From contig NZ_PUGF01000004.1 in the NCBI RefSeq assembly GCF_002976435.1, positions 186,001 through 250,000 of the forward strand: a stretch of 64,000 nt of DNA, written 5' to 3'. A program made the position numbers and the translations under genes. A model generated the notes under the pieces. It saw only the letters and a program-made list of their open reading frames with translations, had not been told where the DNA came from and searched no databases. Below, one piece after another: positions 16,508 through 27,100 of the stretch (positions are counted from its first letter, which is position 1; each line of letters begins with the position of its first letter). This stretch comes from Solimicrobium silvestre. GTDB taxonomy: Bacteria > Pseudomonadota > Gammaproteobacteria > Burkholderiales > Burkholderiaceae_D.

Positions 16508-16891
16508 TTACTTCTTGGCTGCTTTAGCGCGCTTCGAACCATACTTGGAACGAGCTTGCTTACGGTCTTTAACGCCTTGAGTATCCAATGCGCCGCGAAC
16601 CATATGGTAACGCACACCCGGCAAATCCTTAACACGACCACCGCGCAGCAAAACTACGCTATGTTCTTGCAAGTTATGGCCTTCACCGCCGATATACGAA
16701 ATAACTTCGAAACCGTTGGTTAAGCGTACTTTGGCAACCTTACGTAAAGCCGAGTTAGGCTTTTTAGGGGTTGTTGTATAAACGCGAGTACAAACTCCAC
16801 GCTTTTGCGGGCTGTTTTCCAGCGCCGGCGATTTGCTCTTGACACGTGCAGAAACACGTGGCTGGCGAATCAATTGATTGATGGTTGGCAT
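16508..16891 (-). CDS. rpsL: 30S ribosomal protein S12
   Basis: S12 (127 residues) is the decoding-centre protein. It contains the loop [13 protein letters not shown] with the lysine whose change gives streptomycin resistance in E. coli, and the second loop [11 protein letters not shown]; both are wild type. It is the first gene of the str operon. A structured leader (16921-16996) and the accessory block lie upstream of it instead of rpoC. Confidence 0.98.
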
Positions 16892-17213
16892 CGTTCTAAA
16901 CCCAACATAAATAAGACATAAACCCGGAAACGATTGCCCGGGGACTAATCAATCTCTCGCACATTGTGCGGGCAGTTAAGTAGATAACTACTTAATCCTC
17001 TCTGACTTTATATCTGCCGTGCCGGGCTAACAGTTGCCTATTTTTTCATCAAAAAATTGATGGAAATTACCCTATCACACTACAGAAACAAAATTGAGAA
17101 CTCGCAAGTTTAATCTCGGTTTGGAAGCACGTCAATCACTTTCCAGCAATTTCCACCGTTACGCACCACGAAATCCAACTTCTTGCTTGCATAAAACAGC
17201 TTTCTTGTTAAAG
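16892..17213. other. spacer between rpsL and the phosphoethanolamine-transferase-like gene
   Basis: This 322-base stretch separates divergent genes. It holds the rpsL leader hairpins and, presumably, promoters for both directions. An open frame beginning with TTG at 17094 runs into the plus-strand gene, but the added 40 residues look non-conserved, so that segment is treated as leader. No other gene was seen. Confidence 0.5.
16924..16995 (-). promoter_or_regulatory. structured leader of the str operon
   Basis: Three hairpins follow one another ahead of rpsL: CCCGG/CCGGG around 16924-16941, the palindrome CGCACATTGTGCG at 16958-16970, and TTAAGTAG/CTACTTAA at 16976-16983 and 16988-16995. They would lie in the rpsL 5' untranslated region on the minus strand. 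A TATAAA about 25 bases upstream of them could be a -10 box but its -35 is weak. Confidence 0.4.
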
Positions 17214-19085
17214 ATGGCATACATTCACAGCAACTTTCACCTTTTGATGCAAAAACAACATTTATTGCGTCCCGCCCAACTTTATTTAGTTTGTTCCTAC
17301 CTACTACTTTCAGCGACGCCTTTTTTCTCATTGATGCTTGGAATTCCAGTTGAAAATGCTGCCACCATTATCGGTTTAGAAATTTTTTTCTGGTTGCTGT
17401 TGTGGAGTGTATTTAAGCGCCCCAACTATTTTCATTGGCTGTTATTACCGGTATTTTTAGCCCTACCGATTGAAATCTATTTGCGCTTGTTTTTTGCGCA
17501 AGGCATTTCACCGCATCATCTGGGCATTATTTTCGAGACCAGTCCAAAGGAAGCCTTCGAATTTTTAGGCAGGAAAACCTGGTTACTAGCATTAACCAGT
17601 ATAGGCATATTTTTGTGGTGGTACAGCCTGCAAATTGTATCCAGAAAAATTTTTATCTGGTCGCACTCTAGCCGCTGGTTTTGCTTAGCAGTTTTACTCT
17701 TTTGCACCATGGGCTTTGTCTACGGCGAAGAATTTGGCTTTAATACGCCTAGCCACAGCGTGACCAGCTCACCCAACTCGACCAGTGCCGACGAGGAGGA
17801 AGATAGCTCTCCTGACGATGCTACCTGGTTTCAAGATTACACTGCAGCCTATCGCGCTACTATGCCCAAATTACCGGCATGGGCTGATAACGATATTGAT
17901 AAAGAGTTAATTGGCCGCACCTGGCCGTTTGGACTTGCCATACATGCCGCCGATTTTTTGTATGAGCGCCATTATTTAAGTATTCTCGCCCAAAAAAGTA
18001 GCACATTTAAGTTTGACGCCAGCTCCGACACAACCCCAAAAACAATCGTCATCGTAATCGGTGAATCATCACGCTATGATCGTTGGAGCTTGAATGGTTT
18101 TAAGCGCGATACCAATCCGCACCTTAAAAACGAAACCAATCTGGTGAGCTTTACCGACATCATCAGCGCAGTTTCTGCCACACGCCTTTCCGTGCCGATC
18201 ATCGTTTCACGCAAACCAGCAACCCAGAGTTTAAAAGCCGGTTTTTCAGAGAAGTCATTCATCTCCGCATTCAAAGAAGCCGGCTATAAAACCTATTGGC
18301 TTTCTAACCAGATGACGTTTGGTGAATTTGATACGCCGATTTCCGTGTTTGCCAAAGAAGCAGATGTCACCCAGTTTTTGAACTTGGGTGGATTTACCAA
18401 CAATTCGAGCTTCGATCAGATTCTGCTGGAGCCGTTTCAAAATGCGCTAACTGACTCGGCACCAAAGAAATTAATCGTCTTGCACACGCTGGGCAACCAT
18501 TGGAATTACAGCCATCGTCACCCTGCAGAATTTGAGCGCTGGAAGCCATCACTGAGCGGCGTGCAGGATCCTGACTATAACAATCGCGATATGAAAGAGC
18601 AGATCAATAATAGCTATGACAATTCGATTTTGTACACAGACTGGATGCTCGATCAGGTCATTACGCAGTTAAAGGCCCAGCAAAACATCAGCGCACTGCT
18701 CTATGTTTCTGATCACGGGCAAACGCTGTACGATGGCAGCTGCAACCTGGCTTTTCACGGCCACAACACGCAATATGAATTTCATATCCCCGCATTCATG
18801 TGGTATTCAAATGATTACTTAAGCGCCTATCCTGATAAAATTGAGCAGCTGTTACGGCATAAGAAAGCCCGTCTTTCAACAGAAAATATCTTTCATTCTT
18901 TGCTTGATATTGCCGACGTTCATTACCCGACCGAACAACTAGACCGCAGCTTCGTCAACGCGCAATTCAAACCGCATGTGCGTTATGTAGATAGTTACGG
19001 CTGGAGCAACTACGACAACGCTCGCTTTAAAGGCGACTGCCGCGAAGTTATTGATAAAAACAAGCCATTAAAGCAAGAAAAATAA
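17214..19085 (+). CDS. phosphoethanolamine transferase-like membrane enzyme (alkaline phosphatase superfamily)
   Basis: The protein has an N-terminal membrane domain of about five hydrophobic segments, then a periplasmic alkaline-phosphatase/sulfatase-type domain. The metal/substrate motif GESSRYDRWSLNGF begins at about residue 283, and SDHGQTLYDG plus FHGHNTQYEFHIP form the second metal-binding set near residue 500. The likely nucleophile lies in SAVSATRLSVP, where the GTxT of EptA-type enzymes is replaced by Ser/Thr. Such enzymes transfer phosphoethanolamine to lipid A or core sugars and change surface charge. The start is uncertain: ATG 17214 is chosen, with TTG 17094 and ATG 17247 as alternatives. 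The exact acceptor cannot be told. Confidence 0.8.
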   Translation: MAYIHSNFHLLMQKQHLLRPAQLYLVCSYLLLSATPFFSLMLGIPVENAATIIGLEIFFWLLLWSVFKRPNYFHWLLLPVFLALPIEIYLRLFFAQGISPHHLGIIFETSPKEAFEFLGRKTWLLALTSIGIFLWWYSLQIVSRKIFIWSHSSRWFCLAVLLFCTMGFVYGEEFGFNTPSHSVTSSPNSTSADEEEDSSPDDATWFQDYTAAYRATMPKLPAWADNDIDKELIGRTWPFGLAIHAADFLYERHYLSILAQKSSTFKFDASSDTTPKTIVIVIGESSRYDRWSLNGFKRDTNPHLKNETNLVSFTDIISAVSATRLSVPIIVSRKPATQSLKAGFSEKSFISAFKEAGYKTYWLSNQMTFGEFDTPISVFAKEADVTQFLNLGGFTNNSSFDQILLEPFQNALTDSAPKKLIVLHTLGNHWNYSHRHPAEFERWKPSLSGVQDPDYNNRDMKEQINNSYDNSILYTDWMLDQVITQLKAQQNISALLYVSDHGQTLYDGSCNLAFHGHNTQYEFHIPAFMWYSNDYLSAYPDKIEQLLRHKKARLSTENIFHSLLDIADVHYPTEQLDRSFVNAQFKPHVRYVDSYGWSNYDNARFKGDCREVIDKNKPLKQEK

Positions 19086-19132
19086 GATTTTTCATATTCC
19101 TATTTTTTGAAATTTTTAACGCATCCAATAGG

Positions 19133-20539
19133 TTATAAAGGCCGCGTAAAAATTGTACTTATAAATCGCATATCCACCTGCAAACCTTGCCCGCTTAGTG
19201 GCGTCGTCAAAACAAGCTGTGCATTGATAGACAAGGCAATTTCATTCGCGATAGATAAACCCAGACCTGAGCTAGTTGATTGGCTTGCATCCAAACGATA
19301 AAACCGCTGCAACACATTTTTGCGCTCTGATTCTGGAATCCCGGGGCCGTTGTCAACAACACGAAAAATACAATTATTTTTTTCTCGCAGAATAGAAATT
19401 GTGACGACACCGGATTTTGTCATGTGCTGAATCGCGTTCTCGACCAAATTTAAAACCAGCTCATGTAATAAATAAACCGGTGCGCTAATCAGCACCGTTT
19501 CATCCAAGTTATCAATGCCAAGATCACTATTTTTATGCTGCGCCAAGGGCGCCAACTCCTCCAATACTTGCTTGACGATGTCGGCCAGCACACAAGGGTG
19601 CGTTACAACATGGTTTTGTTGAGTGCGTTCTAATGCGGCCAATATCAATAATTAATTAATCACTTTACTACCTTGTGCCACGGTTTTTTGCAGTGCAATG
19701 AATACTTCGTTTTGTGTGCTATCCAGCGTGGCGCTACGGCGTCCAAAATTAAGTTGCGAGGTCAACACCGCAAATGAGGTACGAAGTTGATGCGCGGTAC
19801 TAGCGACAAATTGTTCGTATGACGAAAGCGTATTATCTAAGCGCATCACGTAATCATTCATAGCGGAAATCACTGGCAATAATTCACTTGGAACATCCTT
19901 GGTATCTAGTTGTTCTAACGATCCGCCTTGCCGTTGGGTGATTTTTTCACCGAACGAAATCAAGGGGCGCAAAGCCCATCGTGATGCAACCATCAAACCG
20001 GCTAATACCATGCACAACAACATAAAATGTCGACGCATGGTGAGCATAAATAGCTCCTGCCTAAATGCCGCCTGGCCTTTCTGTGTTTGGGCAATTTGTG
20101 TAATAACGATATCGTGTGCCGAGCCAGTTGGCAGCGCGTGCGCATAGGCAATAAATCGTACTGATTCGCTGCCTACCCGGCTTGAAAAATAATGCGCTTG
20201 TTCAAGCGGTATATCGATATTCAATGGCGCTATTTCATCTGCGCCAGCAATCAGCTTACCTTGCTCGCTTCGGATGCTGTAATACACATGATCTTGATAA
20301 GGACTAGCAAACAATTCAAACGCGGCCGGAGGCAAATTAAACTCAACTTCACCATTGATTAAGTTGATTTGTTCGGACATGATTTTTGCCGAGCTTTTCA
20401 GCAGCTGCTCCTGTACCAACGTGGCAATTTTGTCCGTACTGTTATACGTAAATAACAGGTCAACAAAGGAGATCAGCAAAGCTGGTAAAAACACCCATAA
20501 GATCAAACGACTTTTAAGACTTCTAAGTGGTTTGAACAT
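19133..20539 (-). pseudogene. TctE-like sensor histidine kinase interrupted by an in-frame stop
   Basis: The N-terminal part (20539-19652, 295 residues) has a membrane helix, a 2CSK_N-type sensor region, a second helix and a phosphoacceptor region AHQLRTSFAVL with histidine near residue 250. The usual proline of HxLRTP is serine. It ends at TAA 19652-19654. The same frame then continues for 171 residues with LLILAALERTQ, the N box (LVENAIQH), DNGPGIP and SSGLGLSIANE, a full ATPase domain. TctE relatives have a glutamine at the stop position (NQLL), so a single CAA-to-TAA change explains it. The start overlaps the response regulator by 17 bases. It is either a broken gene, a split kinase, or a base error. 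Confidence 0.85.
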
Positions 20540-21197
20540 AGCTCAACATGTAACCTAAGCCGCGTAAGGTAATGATTTGCGCACCGGAATGATCGATTTT
20601 TTTTCGTAGCCGCAAGATGTAAATTTCTAGCGCTTTGGGCGATATGGAATCATTTAACGTACATAAACTATTGGCCAGCTGTTTTTTATCGACCGTCTTA
20701 CCTGCCTGACGCATCAATGCTTCTAAAACAGCGTGTTCTCGCGGTGTTAAATTAAGGTCAAAGGACTGGCTGCTGAAGATTTTTGAATTGCTGTCGTAGC
20801 GTAAATTACCGCAAGAAATAATCGGATTTAATTTGCCGCTAGCACGTCGCAACAATGAACGTATGCGCGCTTCTAATTCGGCAATATCAAACGGCTTGGC
20901 TAAATAATCGTCTGCGCCTAAATTTAAATTTTCAACCATGTCACCAAGCGCGGCAGAGGCGCTAATAATCAATACCGGCACTTCATTATTTTTACTGCGC
21001 AAATTTTTTAAGATCGTTTGACCATTGATTTTTGGCAAGGTGATATCTAACAAAATCGCATCGTAACATTGCGTCCTCAACAGCAACATGGCCTCTTCTC
21101 CGCTAAATGCCTGTTCAATCGTGTAGCCAGAAGCCTGCAAAAGGCGCGTTAGCCAAGTTGATAATTCACGATTATCTTCAACTAATAGTAGTTTCAT
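20523..21197 (-). CDS. OmpR-family response regulator (TctD-like)
   Basis: The 224-residue protein has a receiver domain with the acidic pair E7-D8, phosphoacceptor D51 (ILLDITLPKINGQ) and lysine in LAKPFD, followed by a winged-helix DNA-binding domain (LTPREHAVLEALMRQ, ISPKALEIYILRLRKKI, GLGYML). It is transcribed with the interrupted TctE-like kinase and divergently from the ABC transporter genes, which it probably controls. If the kinase is truly broken, this regulator has lost its partner or relies on another phosphodonor. Confidence 0.93.
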   Translation of the reverse strand: MKLLLVEDNRELSTWLTRLLQASGYTIEQAFSGEEAMLLLRTQCYDAILLDITLPKINGQTILKNLRSKNNEVPVLIISASAALGDMVENLNLGADDYLAKPFDIAELEARIRSLLRRASGKLNPIISCGNLRYDSNSKIFSSQSFDLNLTPREHAVLEALMRQAGKTVDKKQLANSLCTLNDSISPKALEIYILRLRKKIDHSGAQIITLRGLGYMLSYVQTT

Positions 21198-21234
21198 CTT
21201 GCATCACTCCAATCCAGCTATGCACTTCAATAAT

Positions 21235-21251
21235 TTATTATTAAATAATAA
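21235..21251. promoter_or_regulatory. AT-only palindrome in the regulator/transporter divergent spacer
   Basis: A perfect 17-base palindrome TTATTATTAAATAATAA lies in the 182-base region between the response regulator and the substrate-binding protein gene. It may be an operator for the TctD-like regulator or simply part of an AT-rich promoter. Confidence 0.3.
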
Positions 21252-21379
21252 CTAATTGTAGGCCAATTGAAGGCTTGTACCTGCTACATTCATTTTGGCG
21301 TTATCAAATAACGTTGCTGCGCATCCCAGCGTGTCTTTACCAATAGCATTAAATACGAAACAAAATAACGGAGATCAAA

Positions 21380-22396
21380 TTGACCAAACTTCCTAAGTTA
21401 TCAACGTTTTTAAAATCGCTTTTCACATTAATCATGTTCGCCATCAGCACCAACAGTATCAGCGCTGAAAAAATCATTCTCATCGTTGGTGGAATGGAAA
21501 AGCAAATCTATTTACCAGTGAAATTAGCTGAGCGATTAGGCTACCTAAAGGAAACTGGTCTGGACATCGAATTACTGAGCGAGCCATCCGGCGTAAATGC
21601 AGTGACTGAAATGCTTTCTGGCGCCGCGCAAGGCGTGGTCGGTTTTTATGATCACACCATTGATTTGCAAGCGCGCGGCAAACAAGTGCAATCCGTCGTT
21701 CAATTCAGCCAGGCACCTGGCGAAGCGATTTTGGTATCTAAAACAGCATCAGCACACATCAAATCACCTGCAGACTTCAAAGGGAAAACGCTAGGTGTAA
21801 CGGGGCTTGGTTCTTCGACTAATTTTTTAACCCAATTTTTGGCCTCAAAATATGGCGTTAAAAATAGTGAATATACGACCTTACCAGTCGGTTCTGGATC
21901 AACCTTTATTGCTGCGATGACGCAAAAAAAGATTGATGCCGGCATGACCACAGAACCAACCATTTCACGCTTAACCTCCACCGGAGCGGCGTCTATTCTA
22001 GTAGATTTGCGTACACTCAAAGCCACCGAAGCAGCACTCGGGGGCGCGTATCCCGGTGCGTGTTTATATATGCCAACTGCTTGGGTTAATTCACACAAAG
22101 AACAGGTTCAAAAAATTGTCACAGCATTTGTAAAAACCTTAGCCTACATCCAGACACATAGTGCGCAGGAGATTGCCGACATGATGCCGCCCGATTATTA
22201 CAAAGCCAATAAACAGCAATACATTGATTCGCTTTCAGCAAGTAAAGACATGTTTACTGCCGACGGTATCATGCCTGAATCTGGTCCAGCTACAGTACTT
22301 AACGTATTGAATGGCTTTAACAAAGCCGTGCAAGGGAAAAATATTAATTTATCCAATACTTACACCACTGAATTTGTTAAAGCGGCACGCAAATGA
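21380..22396 (+). CDS. ABC transporter substrate-binding protein, NitT/TauT (NMT1/SsuA) type
   Basis: The 338-residue protein has a signal peptide (cleavage after SISA near residue 30) and a periplasmic binding domain resembling the sulfonate/nitrate/thiamine-precursor group: VGGMEKQIYLPVKLAERLGYLKE, then GKTLGVTGLGSSTNFL. It starts with TTG at 21380, supported by GGAG six bases upstream. It is followed by the ATPase (four-base overlap) and the permease, so this is a complete importer. The ligand cannot be inferred; taurine, other sulfonates, nitrate-like or pyrimidine ligands are all possible. Confidence 0.88.
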   Translation: MTKLPKLSTFLKSLFTLIMFAISTNSISAEKIILIVGGMEKQIYLPVKLAERLGYLKETGLDIELLSEPSGVNAVTEMLSGAAQGVVGFYDHTIDLQARGKQVQSVVQFSQAPGEAILVSKTASAHIKSPADFKGKTLGVTGLGSSTNFLTQFLASKYGVKNSEYTTLPVGSGSTFIAAMTQKKIDAGMTTEPTISRLTSTGAASILVDLRTLKATEAALGGAYPGACLYMPTAWVNSHKEQVQKIVTAFVKTLAYIQTHSAQEIADMMPPDYYKANKQQYIDSLSASKDMFTADGIMPESGPATVLNVLNGFNKAVQGKNINLSNTYTTEFVKAARK

Positions 22397-23169
22397 AAAA
22401 AATCGCGATCGAACTGACCAACGTCAGCCGTAAATTTATTAGTCCAACAGGCGTATCCACTTTAGCGTTACATGACTTTAGCATGACGCTGCATGAAGGT
22501 GATTTTTGCGCCATTGTTGGCCCAACCGGCTGCGGCAAATCCACCGCGCTGGGCATGATTACCGGCTTAAGCCCACCCTCTTCCGGCACGGTGCGCGTGT
22601 TTAATCAACCGGTCACTAAAATTGATCCCAATATTGGCTTTGTTTTTCAGGCTGATGCGGTTTTTCCCTGGAAGAATGTCATCGACAACATCTCGATCGG
22701 GCCGATTTATCGCGGAACTAACAAAAGGGAAGCAAAAGACAAAGCAGCGGAATGGGTACGGCGTGTTGGGTTGTCCGGTTTTGAATATCATTATCCTCAT
22801 CAATTATCAGGCGGTATGCGCAAGCGCGTGGCACTGGCACAAACATTTATTAACGAACCAAAAATCTTGTTAATGGATGAACCTTTTTCTGCTTTGGACG
22901 TACAGACGCGCGCGTTAATGCAAGATGAATTATTGGGACTCTGGTCTGAAAATAAGGCCTCTGTCGTCTTTGTTACGCATGATATTGAAGAGGCAATTGC
23001 CTTGGCCGATCGGGTAATCGTGCTCACCAAAGGGCCAGGCAAAATTAAAAGCAGTTACGAGATAAACCTGCCACGCCCGCGTGATGTTTCTACCGCCCGC
23101 TACTCAACCGAATTTATTAATTTATCTAAGCAAATTTGGTCTGATTTAAAAGACGAAGTTCATATTTAG
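22393..23169 (+). CDS. ABC transporter ATP-binding protein (SsuB/TauB-like)
   Basis: This 258-residue ATPase powers import through the neighbouring permease. Walker A is GPTGCGKST, the Q-loop is FVFQADAVFPWKNV, the signature is LSGGMRKRVALAQ, Walker B is ILLMDEPFSALD and the switch histidine is in VFVTHDIEEAIALADR. The ATG overlaps the preceding stop (ATGA), indicating coupled translation. Confidence 0.95.
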   Translation: MKKIAIELTNVSRKFISPTGVSTLALHDFSMTLHEGDFCAIVGPTGCGKSTALGMITGLSPPSSGTVRVFNQPVTKIDPNIGFVFQADAVFPWKNVIDNISIGPIYRGTNKREAKDKAAEWVRRVGLSGFEYHYPHQLSGGMRKRVALAQTFINEPKILLMDEPFSALDVQTRALMQDELLGLWSENKASVVFVTHDIEEAIALADRVIVLTKGPGKIKSSYEINLPRPRDVSTARYSTEFINLSKQIWSDLKDEVHI

Positions 23170-23176
23170 GATCCCC

Positions 23177-24049
23177 ATGACAACACCTTTTACACCCACG
23201 CCACCCCTTCCTTCTTCAACAACGGGAAAAGAGGAATTACAGGCAATTGCCAAAGCCAACAAACATCATCGTCTGGTTATTTTTCTACGTTTTGCCGTAG
23301 CGATTGTCACTCTAGCCACTTGGGAATTCGCTGTTCACGTTGAATGGCTGGATGGCTTCTTTTTCTCACGCCCTTCGAGCATTATTGAGCAACTTTTTAT
23401 TTGGATAACTGAAGGCACCGAGCAAGGACCACTATGGAAAGAATTAATGGTGACGCTCGAAGAAACGATATTAGGCTTTTTGATTGGTAGTTTTCTGGGC
23501 ATCTTTTTCGGTATTGCACTAGGCCGAAATAAGCTGATGTCAGATGTATTTAGCATCTACATCAAAATCGCCAATGCCATTCCGCGGATTGTGCTGGGTT
23601 CTATTTTTATCATTATGTTTGGATTAGGCTTAGGTTCAAAAATTGCGCTGGCCGTTGTCATGGTATTTTTTGTGGTTTTTGGCAATGCATTTCAAGGTGT
23701 ACGTGAAGCCGATAAAAACTTAATCGCCAATGCCTATATTCTGGGTGCCAATAAACGGCAGGTTACTTTTTCAGTCATCTTTCCTTCTGCATTGACATGG
23801 ATTTTAGCTAGCTTACATGTCAGTTTTGGCTTTGCTCTGGTTGGCGCTGTAGTTGGGGAATTTCTAGGCGCAAGGCACGGCATAGGCCTGCTGATCGCCA
23901 CCGCGCAAGGCACATTTAATGCGGCAGGCGTTTTTGCAGCGATGATTATTTTGGCGGTGGTAGCGCTTGTGGCGGAATATCTCTTAACTGCGCTTGAAAA
24001 TAAATTATTGAAATGGCGGCCTACGCAATTTGTTGAGCATGGGATGTAA
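23177..24049 (+). CDS. ABC transporter permease (SsuC/TauC-like)
   Basis: The 290-residue inner-membrane protein has about six hydrophobic segments and the binding-protein-dependent transport permease loop near GANKRQVTFSVIFPSALTWIL that contacts the ATPase. The family fits NitT/TauT permeases. It follows the ATPase by seven bases. Downstream is a bidirectional terminator shared with convergent rpoC. Confidence 0.93.
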   Translation: MTTPFTPTPPLPSSTTGKEELQAIAKANKHHRLVIFLRFAVAIVTLATWEFAVHVEWLDGFFFSRPSSIIEQLFIWITEGTEQGPLWKELMVTLEETILGFLIGSFLGIFFGIALGRNKLMSDVFSIYIKIANAIPRIVLGSIFIIMFGLGLGSKIALAVVMVFFVVFGNAFQGVREADKNLIANAYILGANKRQVTFSVIFPSALTWILASLHVSFGFALVGAVVGEFLGARHGIGLLIATAQGTFNAAGVFAAMIILAVVALVAEYLLTALENKLLKWRPTQFVEHGM

Positions 24050-24100
24050 CTATTCTATTTTCCTCATAGAACGAATCGCTGATATTCAAATCAGAAAACA

Positions 24101-24135
24101 AAAAAGCGACGCCTTATTAAGACGTCGCTTTTTTT
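24101..24135. terminator. bidirectional terminator between the ABC permease and rpoC
   Basis: AGCGACG at 24105-24111 pairs with CGTCGCT at 24123-24129, extended inward by CCTTA/TAAGA including a G-U pair. A-runs precede and T-runs follow the stem, so it can end transcription of both the permease (plus) and rpoC (minus). Confidence 0.85.
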
Positions 24136-24163
24136 ACTACTTCACCAAGAAGCGCTTAAAGAA

Positions 24164-27100
24164 TTAAGCGTCGCCTTCAGTGATGTCACTTGTGCTAGCT
24201 TCAGCGTGAGTGGCAAATGCTGCTTTTTCTGCTTGCAACATGGCAGTGCGTTCGTCTGCTTCCCATGTTTCTTTCAACTTACGGGCGCGGTGATAAGCCA
24301 AACCTGTTCCGGCAGGAATCAAACGTCCAACAATGACGTTTTCTTTCAAGCCGCGCAAGCTATCTTGTTTGCCCATAATCGCTGCTTCAGTCAAGACACG
24401 TGTTGTCTCTTGGAATGACGCTGCAGAAATGAATGAATCTGTCGACAACGATGCTTTAGTAATACCGAGCAAAATATTTTCATATGTAGCTGGGATATTG
24501 CCTGCAGCAACAACGCGATCATTTTCATCCAGCAATTCAGAACGCTCAACCTGCTCACCGACGATGTAATTCGCATCGCCTGGATTCACAACCGTTACGC
24601 GACGCAACATCTGACGCACAATCACTTCAATATGCTTGTCATTGATCTTAACGCCTTGCAAACGGTACACGTCTTGAACTTCTTCAACGATGTAACGCGC
24701 CAACGCTTCAATACCCAACAAACGCAGAATGTCTTGCGGGTCACGCGGACCGTCCACAATCATTTCACCTTTGTTGACTACCTGGCCGTCATGTACCAAC
24801 ACTTGTTTTTCTTTAGCGATCAGGAATTCGTGTTTTTCACCATCCAGATCAGTAATTTCCAAACGTTGCTTACCTTTGGTTTCTTTACCGAAGGCAACCG
24901 TACCGGTTACTTCAGCCAAGACACCAGCGTCTTTAGGCGAACGTGCTTCAAACAACTCAGCAACGCGCGGGAGACCCCCGGTAATATCACGTGTTTTTTG
25001 CGATTCAGTTGGGATACGCGCCAATACTTCACCGACGTGTACTTGCTGTCCGTCTTTCACCATCAACAACGCACCCGGCTGGAAGCTGATCGTTACGGCG
25101 TGTTCTGTGCCGGCGATCTTCACTTCTTGACCTTGTTCGTTCAACAGCTTAACTTGCGGACGCAACAACTTAGTTGCCATACCACGACGTTTCGCATCAA
25201 TCGCAACCAAGGTCGACAAACCAGTTACTTCATCAACTTGCTTAGCAACGGTAACGCCTTCTTCGACGTTTTCAAACTTAACCTGACCGGTGTATTCAGT
25301 AATGATCGGACGAGTCAATGGATCCCAAGTCGCCAAAATAACGCCGGCCTTGATAACCATACCGTCGGTCACTGCCAACGTTGCACCGTAAGGTACTTTA
25401 TGACGTTCACGTTCACGACCGTGGTCATCGGTAATCATGACTTCACCGGAACGGGAAATCACGATCAAGTCACCTTTGCCGTTTGTTACATAACGCATCG
25501 TTGCGGTAAAGCGGATAGTTCCGTTTGACTTGGCTTCGATAGAAGATGCAACAGCAGCACGGGAAGCAGCACCACCAATATGGAAGGTACGCATCGTCAA
25601 CTGGGTACCCGGTTCACCGATCGACTGAGCAGCGATAACACCAACTGCTTCACCGGCATTGACCATAGAACCACGACCTAAATCGCGGCCATAACACATG
25701 GCGCACAAACCGTAGCGTGTGTCGCAAGTTAATGGCGTACGAACTTTAACTTCATCAATACCTAAGCGCTCGATTTCTTCAACTTCGTCTTCGCTCAGCA
25801 ACGTGCCGGCTGGGTACAGAGTTTCTTGCGTATCTGGATTAACAACATCCAACGCAGTAACGCGACCTAAAATCAATTCGCGCAACGGCTCAATAACTTC
25901 ACCACCCTCAACCAGGGCCTTCATCGCGGCGCCGTTGGCTGTACCGCAATCATCGTCAATAACGACCAGATCTTGGGTAACGTCAACCAGACGACGAGTC
26001 AGGTAACCTGAGTTCGCTGTTTTCAACGCAGTATCGGCCAAACCTTTACGAGCGCCGTGAGTTGAAATAAAGTACTGCAACACGTTCAGACCTTCGCGGA
26101 AGTTCGCGGTAATCGGTGTTTCAATAATCGAACCATCCGGTTTAGCCATCAAACCGCGCATACCTGCTAACTGACGAATCTGTGCAGCTGAACCACGCGC
26201 ACCGGAGTCGGCCATCATGTAAATGGCGTTGAATGATTCTTGCGTGCCGGTTGTACCGTCGCGCTTGACGACGTCTTCAACCTTCAGACGTTCCATCATC
26301 GCCTTACCTACGTCGTCACCGGTTTTGCCCCAGATATCAACCACTTTGTTATAACGCTCGCCGGCTGTCACCAGGCCGGATGCATATTGCTGTTCAATCT
26401 GCTTAACTTCTTTTTCAGCAGCAGCGATCAAGGTTACTTTTTGTGGCGGTACCAACATGTCGTCGATACAGATAGAAATACCTGCACGCGTCGCCAAGCG
26501 GAAACCAGATTGCATCAATTTATCGGCAAATACCACTGTCGCACGCAGACCGCATTTACGGAATGAGATGTTGATCAGTTTTGAAATTTCTTTCTTTTTC
26601 AAGGCACGATTCAAGACGCTGAATGGCAAACCTTTTGGAAGAATTTCTGACAAAATCGCGCGACCAATCGTGGTTTCGTAACGAGTAATTGTCTTTTCAA
26701 ACTCACCAGTTTCCAGATTTTTTGGATACTCGGTAATACGTACAGTAATACGGGTAGTCAGTTCCACTTCTTTGTTGTCATAAGCACGAATCACTTCTGA
26801 CACATCCGGGAACATCATGCCTTCGTTCTTACCGTTGATTTTTTCGCGAGTAGCGTAGTACAGACCCAACACGATATCTTGGGAAGGTACGATCGATGGT
26901 TCACCGTTAGATGGGAACAAGATGTTATTTGAAGCCAGCATCAATGTGCGTGCTTCCATCTGTGCTTCTACTGACAGTGGAACGTGAACCGCCATTTGAT
27001 CGCCATCGAAATCGGCATTGAATGCGGCGCAAACCAAAGGATGTAACTGGATCGCTTTACCTTCAATCAGGACTGGCTCAAACGCTTGAATACCTAAACG

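Follow-up and report, generated by a model that had tools for sequence, protein, structure and literature searches.

The window, which is the whole stretch of 64,000 nucleotides of Solimicrobium silvestre DNA that was analysed, carries on its minus strand a 468-codon frame for a sensor histidine kinase, running from ATG 20539 to a final TAA at 19135-19133. The frame shows a sole break, a TAA at 19654-19652 that is in frame with ATG 20539 at codon 296 and separates the phosphoacceptor half of the kinase from the ATPase half. The minus-strand letters around it are ...AGT AAA GTG ATT AAT TAA TTA TTG ATA TTG GCC... The features of the region are the following:

19133..19651, minus strand: downstream part of the kinase, 172 codons plus stop, with the end of HisKA and HATPase_c
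19544..19546, minus strand: internal TTG, codon 332, putative start of a 137-residue free ATPase domain with HATPase_c at residues 27-125
19556..19562, minus strand: GGAGGAG, best anti-Shine-Dalgarno match of the downstream starts tested (-9.3 kcal/mol), ending 9 nt before TTG 19546
19646..19648, minus strand: TTG nearest past the stop
19652..19654, minus strand: in-frame TAA, residue 296, Gln in 31 of 33 homologues
19652..20539, minus strand: upstream part of the kinase, 295 codons plus TAA, with 2CSK_N, a hydrophobic segment (by eye), His 250 and most of HisKA
20523..21197, minus strand: OmpR-type response regulator, frame intact, 17-base overlap with the kinase start
21380..22396, plus strand: NMT1/THI5-like ABC substrate-binding protein, oriented divergently to regulator and kinase
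22393..23169, plus strand: ABC transporter ATP-binding protein (domain search, neighbourhood comparison)
23177..24049, plus strand: ABC transporter permease (domain search, neighbourhood comparison)

A preliminary description of this DNA had named the TAA as the lone interruption of the kinase, KVIN and LLILAALERTQ as its flanking residues and a 171-residue open reading frame from TTG 19648 downstream of it. The frame is otherwise open, the flanks are correct in translation, the downstream frame is present as described, and the stop codon was confirmed in each detail checked.

According to Pfam, a 2CSK_N input domain precedes the stop (93.9 bits, cut-off 23.2) and HATPase_c follows it (72.5 bits against a cut-off of 26.4, in the downstream part). 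HisKA is weak: with X in place of the stop, the frame scores 23.0 bits, below the cut-off of 26.9, while the intact kinase of the nearest homologue, from Sapientia aquatica SA-152 (Oxalobacteraceae; G004), reaches 27.7 bits. Since the HisKA match spans residues 242-304, the stop sits in the final stretch of this domain, in what we take to be its second helix. The phosphoacceptor His is residue 250 and is aligned in all 34 sequences compared, and the stop column stands opposite a Gln of QseC (3jz3). The ATPase motifs N, G1, F and G2 are located after the stop; the alignment thus bears out the earlier placing of the phosphoacceptor His before the stop and of these motifs after it.

The kinase shares its domain order, H-box, ATPase motifs and place beside an OmpR-type regulator with the 2CSK_N-type kinases (QseC/TctE-like; PF08521, PF00512 and PF02518). 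The latter are each one continuous polypeptide, whereas the window frame is broken by the TAA at residue 296. The name TctE-like, used in the preliminary description, holds at the family level through 2CSK_N; no TctE model appears in the family matches listed for either part of the kinase, and the transporter is NMT1-type. The transporter partner of TctE is TctCBA. In the window the neighbours are NMT1, ABC_tran and BPD_transp_1 instead of this tripartite transporter, and the best NCBIfam model of the partner regulator is TctD, which it matches under the cut-off (229.6 bits versus 337). The window kinase is therefore of the broad TctE/QseC type and not TctE proper.

A proline is usual in the H-box of histidine kinases. 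At residues 250-256, 21 of 34 sequences, the window kinase among them with 20 homologues, show H[QH]LRT plus Ser/Thr/Tyr, then an aromatic residue, and the remaining 13 show HQLRTPL. In contrast to other 2CSK_N-type kinases, Ser or Thr (once Tyr) thus replaces the Pro after HQLRT/HHLRT in the clade of the window, and the Pro is missing from the whole group, the 19 closest homologues included.

Homologues were searched in 59 relatives (E 1e-30 or better), where 49 genomes have one, the window's own included, and in 392 genomes of the family (E 1e-75 or better), where 48 genomes gave 49 rows. Rows without a locus sequence were left out of the alignment at the stop column, which contains 33 homologues: L010-L015 from the search of relatives and L052-L078 from that of the family. 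The residue in this column is Gln in 31 of them (CAG in 17, CAA in 14) and in all 19 closest homologues (47-60% identical); the exceptions are Asp in L011, which belongs to the same genus and is 35% identical, and Lys in L014 (29%). This comparison of orthologues agrees with the earlier expectation of a glutamine at the stop, for which a single-codon nonsense change suffices. The ungapped homology through both flanks, together with the Gln column, makes the stop more than chance, and a chance stop in a misread frame is ruled out by the homology that continues on both sides.

None of the other 48 rows of the family search (392 genomes, E 1e-75) shows an internal stop in the matched stretch, and the six stops flagged in other homologue rows of both searches all proved to be terminal on sequence check. 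The break is thus seen in this genome only, the species sample being one strain. The genomes of the window and of S. aquatica SA-152 are assigned to the same genus, where comparison is thin because the set contains five genomes. No relative was found when contigs were scanned with the window fragment, and the same scan with the S. aquatica kinase found, beyond S. aquatica SA-152 itself, one remote kinase. Furthermore, the window's own genome has no close paralogue at E 1e-30; its other two matches are 30 and 28% identical.

Both the response regulator and the NMT1-type ABC transporter divergent from it are intact, and S. aquatica has them in synteny. Among 16 regions compared, 11 show the same divergent five-gene layout, with regulator and kinase on one side and binding protein, ATPase and permease on the other (G004, G341, G177, G111, G060, G356, G404, G096, G133, G361 and G030). 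Eleven of the 19 closest homologues were checked for synteny and ten have this layout. Of the other regions, G012 contains all five genes in a different arrangement, in G003 and G305 the binding protein alone accompanies the two-component pair, and G032 and G054 lack both binding protein and permease in the stretch compared. This conserved neighbourhood suggests that the two-component pair probably serves the ABC transporter. The gap between the regulator and binding-protein genes is about 1.6-1.8 kb in eight of the 11 divergent loci (L079, L081-L087), with space for another gene, and is short in the window, G004, G177 and G030.

Constraint on the two kinase parts was compared with ten orthologues, picked for synteny from the 16 regions. 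No second stop or frameshift was found after the TAA in the 172 codons downstream in the kinase frame. In this part the window changed one of 41 otherwise invariant columns, while each of the other ten taxa, left out in turn, changed 0-2 of 40-42. In the part before the stop, four of 73 invariant columns are lost in the window (others 0-12 of 69-81), and in the regulator five of 120 (others 0-8 of 115-123). Private residue changes number 24 in the window versus 38 in S. aquatica before the stop, 20 versus 19 after it, and 13 versus 14 in the regulator. Their relatively higher share after the stop (20/39 versus 24/62) may give a slight hint of relaxation, nothing like decay.

In a neutral simulation of a downstream part freed from selection by the stop, the joint probability that no further stop arises and that not more than one of the 41 columns changes was 0.34 at 0.02 substitutions per site, falling to 0.035 at 0.05 and to 0.003 at 0.075; the simulation modelled substitutions without indels, and the one observed change may predate the stop. 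Neutral drift after the stop is thereby bounded at roughly 0.05 substitutions per site. Synonymous sites to S. aquatica are saturated, with pS at 0.72-0.75 for the kinase's two parts and at 0.68-0.76 across the five genes, and interspecies dN/dS ratios were therefore not used. Set against this saturation, the drift bound means that the stop is very young for the species, or an error, or tolerated. The recent inactivation proposed in the preliminary description is in line with the preserved columns and the simulation, provided that the lesion is real.

The best explanation, to which we give a probability of roughly 0.6, is that an otherwise normal gene for a sensor kinase recently acquired a nonsense mutation, and the case is most likely an ordinary interrupted gene and not a new kind of kinase. 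The single in-frame TAA, the Gln in relatives, the lack of decay after the stop and the lack of an ochre-reading tRNA among the 46 found all speak for the nonsense mutation. Translation of the kinase would end near the end of HisKA, and the main product would be a membrane protein of 295 residues that keeps the sensor domain and the phosphoacceptor His but lacks the ATPase domain, and that therefore could not autophosphorylate. The response regulator, whose intact gene lies upstream and overlaps that of the kinase, would be orphaned, and its usual target, the divergent ABC transporter, would presumably be left without kinase control. In this account we infer that the regulator controls the transporter, that the cell produces too little of the ATPase half to be of use and that the TAA was called correctly. 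Two points count against it: a sequence error, or continued production of both halves, would leave the gene just as free of decay, and the strong Shine-Dalgarno sequence before TTG 19546 is explained only as chance (3.5% of recodings, see below).

The window kinase shows no notable difference from the interrupted coding sequences of bacterial genomes (PMC1852416, PMC2277376), which likewise combine a single lesion with a conserved gene that is intact elsewhere. A narrow search requiring all terms, for nonsense or premature stops in histidine kinases, gave nothing, and says little of what is in print at large. If the lesion is real, this strain has a regulator without its kinase, beside a transporter that in relatives of the strain adjoins an intact two-component pair, and would be a small case of recent regulatory loss.

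The main rival is an error of sequencing or assembly, or the adoption of a minority variant by the assembly, with the real gene intact. We judge it unlikely on balance, although it deserves weight. Both flanks of the stop are well preserved, as an error would leave them, and the stop stands alone in a 67-contig draft, where the letters around it are rich in A/T and include a short ATTA repeat; some interrupted genes in other genomes are reported to have proved sequencing errors (PMC1852416, PMC2330054). Against an error, the change is a substitution, ungapped against the homologues, and not a homopolymer indel. In addition, stops are not in general excess in this genome: its 82 HATPase_c and 75 ABC_tran matches contain no true internal stop, by a check that covers stops inside the domain match only, while the TAA of the window lies outside the HATPase_c match. 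Wide stop reassignment and general decay were rejected on the same check, the single flagged HATPase_c match (contig C1) being a normal terminal stop.

A functional split kinase, in which the 295-residue sensor and His part is phosphorylated in trans by a separate ATPase part started at TTG 19546 or TTG 19648, appears rather improbable to us. Such kinases exist in nature: CheA3/CheA4 of Rhodobacter sphaeroides are known, the separated halves of EnvZ work in vitro, and SMART lists 42417 HisKA proteins of which 1556 are without HATPase (PMC3591291); Hik36-Hik43 of Synechocystis is also described as a split kinase (PMC7656254). As in these systems, the His and ATPase modules of the window are on separate open frames, and the ATPase motifs are kept; unlike in them, the putative split in the window originates from one stop inside HisKA. 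With the break inside HisKA, the dimerisation bundle of the first part would lack its last turns. Furthermore, the arrangement is seen in no relative, the remaining 48 rows of the family search being free of internal stops in the matched stretch.

The translation signals of the downstream part differ between the two putative starts. Random 15-mers gave a Shine-Dalgarno baseline with a median of -0.5 kcal/mol and 5% at -4.5. The preliminary description had asked for a ribosome binding site of the 171-residue part, and none is present at TTG 19648, where the pairing is -0.9 kcal/mol. This TTG lies three bases past the stop, and coupled restart may be possible there, given that the kinase's own start is weak (-2.0 kcal/mol) and the regulator gene overlaps it. 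The GGAGGAG before TTG 19546 (-9.3 kcal/mol) beats the eight window gene starts measured, which range from -1.1 to -6.6, and the fragment from this TTG holds the HATPase_c domain; entry there would lie about 105 bases past the stop. The 22 long ORFs of the window contain 1020 in-frame start codons in their interior, and two of these have a site as strong. When the sequence was recoded synonymously 3000 times with the codon usage of the window, 3.5% of the versions contained one as good within the first 80 codons past the stop, a figure that flatters TTG 19546, as the test was picked post hoc with the site already noticed. No site of this grade was found in the ten orthologues, the best of which is -6.2 kcal/mol. 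The earlier suggestion of a split kinase is borne out as regards the separate His and ATPase frames; the start that it implied, TTG 19648, has no Shine-Dalgarno match, and the relatives do not have the arrangement. The sequence before TTG 19546 lends the split reading some plausibility without establishing it. That the stop divided a 2CSK_N kinase and the GGAGGAG-TTG supplies a trans-acting ATPase domain, giving a newborn split kinase, is quite improbable. This reading, if true, would make the locus a split kinase of very recent origin that offers a view of how split kinases arise, and the intact sister genes would allow a direct test of the cost or benefit of splitting.

Readthrough of the TAA by suppression or recoding, which would give some full-length kinase, is highly improbable. 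The frame and its constraint continue past the stop, as readthrough would have it, but the stop is not shared with the relatives and no internal TAA occurs in the HATPase_c and ABC_tran matches of the genome. A suppressor tRNA was rejected: all 46 tRNAs found have ordinary anticodons and none reads a stop, with 150 of 243 first-look candidates scored in a genome about 99% complete. An old pseudogene in long decay would account for one stop, but without a second stop or frameshift, and with residue losses no higher than those of intact relatives, it was rejected from the column comparison and the neutral simulation and is the least credible reading.

Rfam gave no match at the gathering score between 15000 and 25000. 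Scans of 18900-21400 are not telling, with three promoter-like sites versus 5.9 in shuffles and six terminator-like sites versus 2.8 (sd 2.2). Position 17094-19085 encodes a sulfatase-fold protein whose best NCBIfam model is the phosphoethanolamine transferase CptA, below the cut-off (236.2 bits versus 404), and the end of this gene converges on the kinase gene. By eye, this phosphoethanolamine-transferase-like gene, the two-component pair and the ABC transporter (16891-24164) lie between rpsL and rpoC in the window, and in S. aquatica the pair and the transporter adjoin aminotransferase-like and homoserine dehydrogenase-like genes.
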